From Patescibacteria group bacterium (GTDB lineage Bacteria > Patescibacteriota > Patescibacteriia > Buchananbacterales > SURF-54), in NCBI GenBank assembly GCA_018818885.1, contig JAHIRB010000004.1, forward strand, positions 1 to 44,393: a DNA stretch of 44,393 nucleotides, written 5' to 3'. The translations under genes were made by a program, and so were the position numbers. A model generated the notes under the pieces. That model did no database searches, was not told the origin of the DNA, and saw only the letters and a program-made list of their open reading frames with translations. Positions 18,410 through 40,000 of this stretch are shown in pieces (within the stretch, counting starts at the first letter, position 1; every line of letters begins with the position of its first letter).

Positions 18410-19723
18410 ATGAAAAATATAGTAAGAAAATTTACTCCCAAATTTGTTATATCTCTTTATCATATTACTTTAGCAATACTTGCTAATTTTTTTTACTTTT
18501 TGCCATCGCGTAAACTAATAGTCATCGGAGTTACTGGTACTGCAGGTAAGTCAACCGCCATTGAATTAATAGCTAAAGTGTTAGAAGAAGCAGGAAATAA
18601 AGTTGGTATTGCATCCACAATAAAATTTAAAATTGCAGACATTGAAAAACTCAACGACAAAAAGATGACTATGCTTGGAAGGTTCCAGCTGCAGAAATTG
18701 CTATATCAAATGGTAAAAGCTGGCTGTCAATACGCTTTGGTTGAAACAACTTCCGAAGGAGTTAGGCAGTTTCGTCATCTTGGAATTAATTATGATGTTT
18801 TAGTATTTACTAATTTATTTCCAGAGCATATTGAATCTCACGGTAGTTTTGAAAAGTATAAAGAGGCCAAAGGTAAATTGTTCAAACACCTAAAAAGATG
18901 CCCAGCAAAGAAGGTCAACAACAAGAAGATCAAGAAAGTAATAATTGCCAATATTGACGACGAACATGCAAATTATTTTTTAGGTAACTGGGCAGAAGAA
19001 AAGTATGGTTTTTCTGTTGACACAACTAACAACGAAAAGACATCCATTATAGTCAAAGCAGATCAAGCAGCGCAAACAAAAAATGGATTTGAATTTTTGG
19101 TTGGTGTTACTAAATTTGAAGTTCCTCTTTATGGTGACCACAATGTCTATAACGCGATCGTAGCAGTCACTGTTGGCTTATCGCAAGGAGTTAATTTAGA
19201 AATAAGTCAAATAGCATTGAGCAAAGTCAATTTAATTCCTGGTAGAATTGAATTTATTGATGAAGGTCAGCCCTTTAAAATAATTGTCGACTATGCTTTT
19301 CTACCAGAAGCGCTAGAAAAACTCTACGAAGTAGTCAAGTTATTAAAATCAAAAAAAGTAATTCATGTTTTAGGTTCTGCCGGCGGGGGACGTGATGTTG
19401 CGCGTCGTCCAAAACTTGGTAAACTTGCTGGAGAAAAAGCAGACATAGTCATCATCACAAACGAAGATCCATACGACGAAGACCCAAAACAAATAATTAA
19501 TCAAGTTACAGCGGGTGCTGAAGGCGCTGGTAAAAAGATAGATCACAATTTATTTAAAATTACAGATCGTCGTAAAGCCATCAACAAGGCGCTGTCACTA
19601 GCAAAAAAAGATGATGTAGTTCTTATAACAGGCAAAGGATCAGAGCAAGCAATTGCAGATCCAAACGGCAAGTTAACTCCTTGGGATGATAGGAAGGTGG
19701 TTCGGCAGCTTTTAAATAAATAA
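18410..19723 (+). CDS. Mur ligase family protein (MurE-like)
   Basis: VIGVTGTAGKSTAIELI, VPLYGDHNVYNAI, VIHVLGSAGGGRDVARRPKLGKLA, LTPWDDRKV. Confidence 0.88.
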   Translation: MKNIVRKFTPKFVISLYHITLAILANFFYFLPSRKLIVIGVTGTAGKSTAIELIAKVLEEAGNKVGIASTIKFKIADIEKLNDKKMTMLGRFQLQKLLYQMVKAGCQYALVETTSEGVRQFRHLGINYDVLVFTNLFPEHIESHGSFEKYKEAKGKLFKHLKRCPAKKVNNKKIKKVIIANIDDEHANYFLGNWAEEKYGFSVDTTNNEKTSIIVKADQAAQTKNGFEFLVGVTKFEVPLYGDHNVYNAIVAVTVGLSQGVNLEISQIALSKVNLIPGRIEFIDEGQPFKIIVDYAFLPEALEKLYEVVKLLKSKKVIHVLGSAGGGRDVARRPKLGKLAGEKADIVIITNEDPYDEDPKQIINQVTAGAEGAGKKIDHNLFKITDRRKAINKALSLAKKDDVVLITGKGSEQAIADPNGKLTPWDDRKVVRQLLNK

Positions 19724-21326: not shown

Positions 21327-21553
21327 CCAAGTCGTAGCTAGAGCTGAAAGTGTGGGGAAAGAAGTGGGTCAAAATCTTTTTAAACACAGATCGCTATAAA
21401 GCAACTGCTAAAGTTTTGTCATTAGTAAAAAAATATGATATTGTTTTTATAACAGGCAAAGGATCAGAGCAAGCAATTGCAGATCCAAACGGCAAGTTAA
21501 CTCCTTGGGATGATCGAAGAGTTATTAAAGAAGAATTAAAAAATATCGGGTAG
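21326..21553 (+). pseudogene. Decayed copy of the Mur ligase C-terminus
   Basis: NQVVARAESVGKEVGQNLF… then frameshift, …DRYKATAKVLSLVKKYDIVFITGKGSEQAIADPNGKLTPWDDRRVIKEELKNIG*; 68 bp identical to 19623-19690. Confidence 0.85.
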
Positions 21554-21610
21554 GCGAGGTCCCTTGATCTCGCCAGTATGCAGATCGGGTCAAGGGTCTC
21601 GATTTACCCT
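21547..21610. repeat. Three-way-junction palindromic element, copy 1
   Basis: CGGGTAG|GCGAGGTCCCTTGATCTCGCC|AGTATGCA|GATCGGGTCAAGGGTCTCGAT|TTACCC. Confidence 0.65.
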
Positions 21611-21617
21611 GCAATTA

Positions 21618-21653
21618 TCAAAAAGAAAAGGAACCCACACTATGCAGGTTCCC
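21618..21653 (-). terminator. Terminator of minus-strand orphan gene
   Basis: GGAACC…GGTTCC with T-rich tail on minus strand. Confidence 0.7.
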
Positions 21654-21669
21654 ATAATTACGACCTTAG

Positions 21670-21909
21670 TCAAACGACAGCTTCTTTTAAGAATTCTTTC
21701 ATTGCCGTCGCATCTTCAGCAGCCTCTTGGCGAGAAATTGCTTTTCCCAGCACATGATAGCCACCACGGGAGTCCCCAGAATGAGGATCAATAGGAAGGT
21801 TCTGTTTTTTGCGCCATTTCTCAATCAAACTGGGAGTAAGATCATCTTCTTCGACACCCAAGGCTTGAGCAGCTAGTATTCTGGCAGTTTCTTTAAGGCT
21901 TCCACCCAT
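21670..21909 (-). CDS. Hypothetical protein
   Basis: 79 aa; AAAGGAGGGG SD upstream of ATG. Confidence 0.65.
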   Translation of the reverse strand: MGGSLKETARILAAQALGVEEDDLTPSLIEKWRKKQNLPIDPHSGDSRGGYHVLGKAISRQEAAEDATAMKEFLKEAVV

Positions 21910-21993
21910 TAGTAACCCCTCCTTTCCTTAGTCGTCATGTATCTTTTTTCATTAATATTTTATCATAAAATAAGATATAATTCTAATACTCAA

Positions 21994-22053
21994 CGGGTAG
22001 GGTAGCCTTTAGGCTGCCCGTAGCTACAGTCGGCCTGAAGGCCGACCTACCCG
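21994..22053. repeat. Three-way-junction palindromic element, copy 2
   Basis: CGGGTAG|GGTAGCCtttaGGCTGCC|CGTAGCTACA|GTCGGCCtgaaGGCCGAC|CTACCCG. Confidence 0.8.
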
Positions 22054-36275: not shown

Positions 36276-36323
36276 AATTATTTTTTTCACGTAGGCGACA
36301 TTGGCCAATGTCGCAAACGAAAT

Positions 36324-38788: not shown

Positions 38789-40000
38789 ATGCATAAATAC
38801 ATATTCATTCTCGGACGCAATCAGGAACTGTCAGTAGCAGAAACTAAAGCAGTATTAAATTCTGGTCAATTTGAACTTGAACCTGGTTTTTTAGTCTATT
38901 CGTCAGAAAAAGAAATTGACGCTGATAAATTAATGAATCAGCTAGGCGGAACAATCAAAATAGCAAAAGTTTTCGCAGACAAAATCGATCAAGATCAGAT
39001 AATAGAACAAATACTATCAAATACACAAAAAGGGAAAAAAGTGTATTTTGGATTCAGCCAGTATGGGCAAGGTCAAAACATAAATAAAATTGCACATGAT
39101 ATCAAAAAAACCATTAAAGAAAAAGGATATCCTGTACGTTGGGTAATATCTAAAGAAAAACAGCTTAGTTCAGTAGTAGTCAAAAAAAACAAGTTGCTTA
39201 GTCAAGGTGCAGAAATAATAATTACAAAAAATCATGTAGCTAAAACTTTGGCAGTTCAGGATTTTGAGGAATATGGCAGAAGAGATTTTGGCAGACCAGC
39301 GCGTGACACTGTTTCTGGTACCATGCCACCAAAGCTGGCAAAAATAATGATCAACCTCACGCAGGTAAGTCAACAAGCAAAAATTTTAGATCCGTTTTGT
39401 GGCTCTGGCACAGTTTTGCAGGAGGCGTTAGTGCTTGGCTACAATAACGTTATTGGATCAGATATTAGTCAGAAAGCAGTTGACGATACAAAGGAAAATT
39501 TAGAGTGGCTAGCTAGCCAGGATAGACGAGATCCCTTAACTTCGTCTAAGCAAGATCGGATAAAGGAACTCGATCTACCCACACACCGGGTAGGCGAGGC
39601 CCTTGCGCCTCGCCGTAACGATCGGGCAGTAGCGCCCGATCTACCCGAATTATATAATTTCGATGTACGTTTATTATCACAAAATATTAAACAAGTTGAT
39701 GCAATAATTACAGAACCATATCTTGGCCCACCACTCAAAGGTAGAGAAACATCAAGTCAGATTTCAAAAATCATATCTGATTTAGAAAAACTATATTTGG
39801 ATGCTTTTGCAGAATTTCAAAAAGTATTAAGTCAGAAGGGAAAAATCGTAATTGTGTTTCCTATTATAGATAATCAACATTTAAATATACTTCCTCAAAT
39901 AAAAAAACTGGGCTTTGAATTACAGAGCCCAGACAATCTAATCTACTCGCGTCCAGAACAAAAGGTCAAACGGAATATTTTGGTTTTTAGTAAGTCTTGA
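38789..40000 (+). CDS. TRM11-like RNA/DNA N2/N6-methyltransferase
   Basis: 403 aa; ILDPFCGSGTVLQEALVLGYNNVIGSDIS, VDAIITEPYLGPPLKG. Confidence 0.75.
   Translation: MHKYIFILGRNQELSVAETKAVLNSGQFELEPGFLVYSSEKEIDADKLMNQLGGTIKIAKVFADKIDQDQIIEQILSNTQKGKKVYFGFSQYGQGQNINKIAHDIKKTIKEKGYPVRWVISKEKQLSSVVVKKNKLLSQGAEIIITKNHVAKTLAVQDFEEYGRRDFGRPARDTVSGTMPPKLAKIMINLTQVSQQAKILDPFCGSGTVLQEALVLGYNNVIGSDISQKAVDDTKENLEWLASQDRRDPLTSSKQDRIKELDLPTHRVGEALAPRRNDRAVAPDLPELYNFDVRLLSQNIKQVDAIITEPYLGPPLKGRETSSQISKIISDLEKLYLDAFAEFQKVLSQKGKIVIVFPIIDNQHLNILPQIKKLGFELQSPDNLIYSRPEQKVKRNILVFSKS
39524..39647. repeat. Hairpin cluster in frame inside the methyltransferase CDS; core 39587-39647 is copy 3 of the three-way-junction element
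   Basis: AGACGA…TCGTCT; GATCG…CGATC; CGGGTAG|GCGAGGCccttgcGCCTCGC|CGTAAC|GATCGGGCagtagcGCCCGAT|CTACCCG. Confidence 0.85.

Follow-up and report, generated by a model that had tools for sequence, protein, structure and literature searches.

Head-to-head hairpin pairs dispersed in a Patescibacteria genome are very probably GTAG-type REP dimers

The paired-hairpin elements of this Patescibacteria genome are, with high confidence, GTAG-type REPs arranged in head-to-head dimers of the REPIN/BIME type, that is, non-autonomous ssDNA elements likely spread by a cognate RAYT. Four copies lie in the window, the whole 44,393-nucleotide stretch of DNA that was analysed. We describe here their structure, their spread through the genome, their association with RAYT genes and their insertion into protein-coding sequence.

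Structure, copy number and covariation

The general layout of the elements is GGGTAG, a hairpin, a short spacer, a second hairpin and (C/T)TACCC. The first-pass annotation had placed elements of this kind at 21547-21610 and 21994-22053 of the + strand, and both are present there. The former (copy 1) reads CGGGTAG, hairpin 21553-21574, spacer, hairpin 21583-21604 and TACCCT, with hairpins of 22 nt each, the first being GGCGAGGT..ATCTCGCC. Copy 2 has feet CGGGTAG and CTACCCG and hairpins of 18 nt each, GGTAGCC TTTA GGCTGCC (22001-22018), then a spacer, then GTCGGCC TGAA GGCCGAC (22029-22046). Copy 3 (39587-39647, + strand) is the most regular of the window copies. It stands in tandem with a degenerate copy 4 (39519-39581, + strand), which sits 5 bases upstream of it and was absent from the three copies annotated earlier. 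The pattern CGGGTAG-N30..56-CTACCCG occurs at 2 loci, against 0 in the reversed control.

Folded as single-stranded DNA, copy 3 reaches its lowest energy as a three-way junction whichever strand is used (-22 and -23 kcal/mol, where shuffles average about -12). The same holds for the + strand of copy 2. The best fold of copy 1 is a single long hairpin with bulges, since the two halves of this copy are inverted, diverged versions of one another. The three-way junction proposed in the first-pass annotation is thus a correct description of the layout but not of the best fold of every copy. A composite 507-bp element, bounded by copies 1 and 2 around ORF 21670-21909, was also considered and was rejected on the grounds that single dimers stand alone elsewhere.

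Further copies in the genome had been set beforehand as a check on the proposed element, and they were found. A covariance model trained on the four window copies only (copies 1-4) recovered 15 distinct loci at E<2e-4 in the 1.35-Mb genome. Eleven of these lie outside the window (E 2e-12 to 2e-4), seven of them at E<1e-9; copy 1, itself part of the training set, was recovered at E 1.7e-15. The element is near-palindromic, and the same layout can be read on both strands. The order of the hairpins is constant across eleven copies, with the true orientation outscoring the reverse by 20-44 bits. Mean identity between the two halves is 0.67. Two copies of this type, family A (L019:1501-1592 and L021:1501-1587), have further hairpins within one of their hairpin loops, as though a REP-like sequence had been inserted in the element or had grown within it.

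The stems covary. In 11 aligned copies 90.7% of cells were paired and both sides had changed in 10 of 22 pairs, a result somewhat favoured by an alignment that was fitted to the covariance model. The alignment had 20 cells with both-side changes and the shuffles had 6.7; none of 500 shuffles reached the covariation score. In controls with slid partners, paired cells fell to 28-51% and the covariation signal was lost. Compensatory change in the stems, as first claimed, therefore exceeds both shuffled and slid controls. The GTAG foot is exact in 16 of 22 half-elements, with one change in the remaining six. The elements thus show the feature by which REPs are recognised, that of a 20-40 nt hairpin whose 5' foot is GTAG.

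RAYT genes, linker hairpins and further REP families

The genome holds six Y1-transposase genes, all of which exceed the cut-off of NCBIfam NF047646 (REP_Tyr_transpos, REP-associated tyrosine transposase). There is also a weak match to E. coli TnpAREP (4er8), which covers the HUH and WQ-Tyr stretches. When the six genes were scanned for linker hairpins, with no foot required, five had hairpins in the HUH-Tyr linker; RAYT L008 had no linker hairpin.

One of these genes (contig C9, L004:1471-2049; HUH motif NHLH, WQ, Tyr motif YIHHNP) carries two REPs of the window type in its HUH-Tyr linker, both in frame. They read GGCAAGGC..GCCTTGCC-TACCC and GGGTA-GGTCGGGC..GCCCGACC. A similar tail-to-tail REP pair lies upstream of the gene, at about 1343-1400 of L004. 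Downstream of it no REP was seen, so that REPs are upstream and internal only. The REPs are tail to tail in the L004 RAYT, whereas they are head to head in the scattered copies. The L004 RAYT is likely the best candidate enzyme for the window REP type; as the genome has several RAYTs, this pairing is drawn from the sequence match alone.

Other REP families occupy the same genome. A second family (family B), GTAGGCGACATT-NNNN-AATGTCGC (CGACATT-4nt-AATGTCG), is found in 18 places and in none of the reversed control. One member lies in the window at 36291-36314 (+ strand; GTAG-GCGACATT-GGCC-AATGTCGC) and is upstream of the gene for elongation factor P, and two copies are inside the RAYT genes L005 and L007, in the HUH-Tyr linker. 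The third family, CGACCCTTCATGGGTCG with CAGAACCTTTATGGTTCTG, is found in the linker of RAYT L003 and in two dispersed places (L106 and L107), where it forms tail-to-tail pairs. A pair similar to the third family was also seen inside a RAYT (L048) that comes from a different family within the order. The linker of RAYT L006 holds a fourth type (family D, GGCGAGGC..GCCTCGCC), of which no dispersed copies were found beyond the L006 gene and its flank, except for one hairpin of window copy 3.

We compared these results with 92 other Patescibacteria genomes, all from this genome's family, order or class. The covariance model found seven loci in six of them; the sole same-family genome gave no covariance model match. 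Four of the seven loci are inside RAYT genes, in frame and in the same linker (genomes G075, G039, G036 and G062). The chance of four in seven falling in RAYTs is about 1e-8, assuming about eight 600-base RAYT genes per 1.1 Mb. RAYT matches were found in 60 of the 93 genomes, indicating that RAYTs are common in the group and the window REP type is rare.

A REP pair inside a Patescibacteria RAYT gene could be more than a passive insertion. It might be retained as a 'master copy' that marks the enzyme by its own substrate. Such a copy may allow self-regulation or joint inheritance, so that a RAYT and its REP family would travel together between lineages. We regard this idea as speculative and rather unlikely.

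Insertions in genes and stop codons

Most copies lie between genes or at gene ends, and others within coding sequence. Three supply a TAG stop: copy 1, a copy after a PNP-family gene (L015) and a copy after a tetrapyrrole-methylase-family gene (L016). Copy 1 had been annotated as ending a Mur ligase remnant, and it does so: TAG at 21551-21553, within its GTAG foot, is the stop codon of ORF 21350-21553 (+ strand). This ORF is a C-terminal remnant that partly duplicates the end of Mur ligase gene 18410-19723. The remnant (21336-21514, compared with 19510-19690) is a diverged duplicate, but its last 65 bases or so do not differ from the parent gene, which would fit a recent gene conversion.

Copies 3 and 4 are in frame in a TIGR01177/UPF0020-like methyltransferase gene (38789-40000, + strand), at about residues 244-287, and together make up about 43 residues of the protein. 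Relatives align with it to about residue 244 and again from near 286, most having a short linker only. In three relatives (L057, L059 and L073) unrelated palindrome-like peptides are inserted at the same linker, for example PRKRESSVKKVTDPRLRGDD. The linker therefore seems permissive, and this suggests a repeatedly used insertion site.

A further copy is in frame in tsaD; solved TsaD structures lack a counterpart for most of residues 126-146. The methyltransferase and TsaD inserts, GVGGAPASHRNDRAEAPDLPI and RVGEALAPRRNDRAVAPDLPE, use the same reading frame and yield nearly the same peptide (VG.A.A..RNDRA.APDLP).

Mechanism, alternatives and known systems

The elements had first been read as a structured nucleic acid that was either selected or mobilised. 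The GTAG foot and head-to-head pairing favour mobilisation, which is further backed by the match to hairpins in or beside a RAYT gene and by in-frame insertion in unrelated genes. Each half consists of a hairpin whose 5' side carries the GTAG foot, and as the halves are inverted the ends read GGGTAG...CTACCC. In the mechanism we propose, the hairpins would fold when the DNA is single-stranded, for example on the lagging-strand template. A cognate RAYT, an HUH enzyme of the IS200/IS605 superfamily, would recognise GTAG and the hairpin, cleave beside it, and then move or copy the pair to a new place. Surviving insertions would be those between genes, at gene ends (giving TAG stops) and in frame in protein loops. 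Action on folded hairpins, with cleavage and movement of the elements by the L004 RAYT, is proposed by analogy with E. coli TnpAREP. That enzyme cuts REP as single strands on either the 5' or the 3' side of the hairpin, at a CT dinucleotide and in a GTAG-dependent manner (PMC8266576); the literature on it likewise does not decide between excision and copying of the pair.

The compensatory stem changes would also be expected of a structured RNA selected for its fold, be it a cis-regulatory element, attenuator, bidirectional terminator or small RNA, with the copies serving separate genes. Several copies do lie just 3' of genes or provide a stop codon, where hairpins can stabilise or end transcripts. 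We consider such an RNA very unlikely. An Rfam scan of the window gave no family at gathering score, in-frame copies in methyltransferase, TsaD and RAYT genes do not fit a regulator or terminator, and the near-palindrome gives the same layout on either strand. An RNA would, moreover, leave the association with RAYT genes unexplained. A separate RNA function is not needed.

Two alternatives invoke other kinds of insertion. It is highly improbable that these are coding-sequence palindromic elements like those of Rickettsia (RPE), inserting in frame independently of any RAYT. Nearly the same peptide is in frame in both the methyltransferase and TsaD, as such elements would predict, but the majority of copies are intergenic or at gene ends and the RAYT association is strong. 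RPE-4 and RPE-6 have, in addition, been grouped with CGTC repeats (Di Nocera 2013, PMC3733652), and the foot here is GTAG. An ordinary MITE moved by a DDE transposase, its terminal inverted repeats being the GGGTAG/CTACCC arms, would equally be short, with inverted ends and several copies. Against this, no consistent target-site duplication was found in the flanks, read by eye. The internal hairpins covary, the foot is the REP GTAG, and matching hairpins lie in or beside HUH-type RAYT genes. We give a DDE-mobilised MITE almost no credence, and REP dimers spread by a RAYT remain our preferred explanation.

Open-access papers yielded no relevant report of REP or RAYT in Patescibacteria/CPR, which is weak evidence of novelty. 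The genome shows REP/RAYT systems of several families together, and it belongs to a reduced bacterial group from which no REP report was found. REP copies in RAYT genes provide a way to read which transposase pairs with which REP family, which is usually hard. The TsaD and methyltransferase insertions show how elements of this sort add length to proteins of small genomes.

Classical REPs usually exceed 100 copies, and the 15 found here are a low number. GTAG head-to-head dimers, TAG stops given to neighbouring ORFs and intragenic copies have been known since the work of Di Nocera, De Gregorio and Rocco (2013, PMC3733652). Our elements resemble those families in their GTAG foot, 7-9 bp stem, head-to-head heterodimers and complementary stem changes, and also in the TAG stop supplied to adjoining ORFs and in some intragenic copies; the comparison with the 24 published families was made at the level of these general features. 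They differ in their Patescibacteria host and in numbering only about 15 dimers. As in REPINs (PMC3116915) and BIMEs, two inverted REPs are repeated as a unit with conserved hairpin order, but the population is far smaller and the halves differ more (mean identity as above). Rickettsia RPE share the short palindromes in frame in unrelated protein genes, and are set apart by the GTAG foot and RAYT association seen here.

REPs in frame between HUH and Y within tnpAREP genes were described in 2018 for subclass 2.4, reported from Cyanobacteria, Bacteroidetes and various phyla, with Patescibacteria not named (Quentin et al., PMC6006769). Our RAYTs are like this subclass in their in-frame REPs between the HUH and Tyr motifs, their WQ motif and their double-foot REPs (family B here). 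The L004 motifs NHLH, WQ and YIHHNP are close, not identical, to the NH[IFV]H, WQ and YIxNNP of subclass 2.4, in a comparison that covered the motifs. Unlike in the subclass 2.4 reports, five RAYTs of one Patescibacteria genome have linker hairpins. The kind of element is thus already known in other phyla; what is new is the host group and the co-occurrence of several REP families, every one of them having a copy within a RAYT gene.
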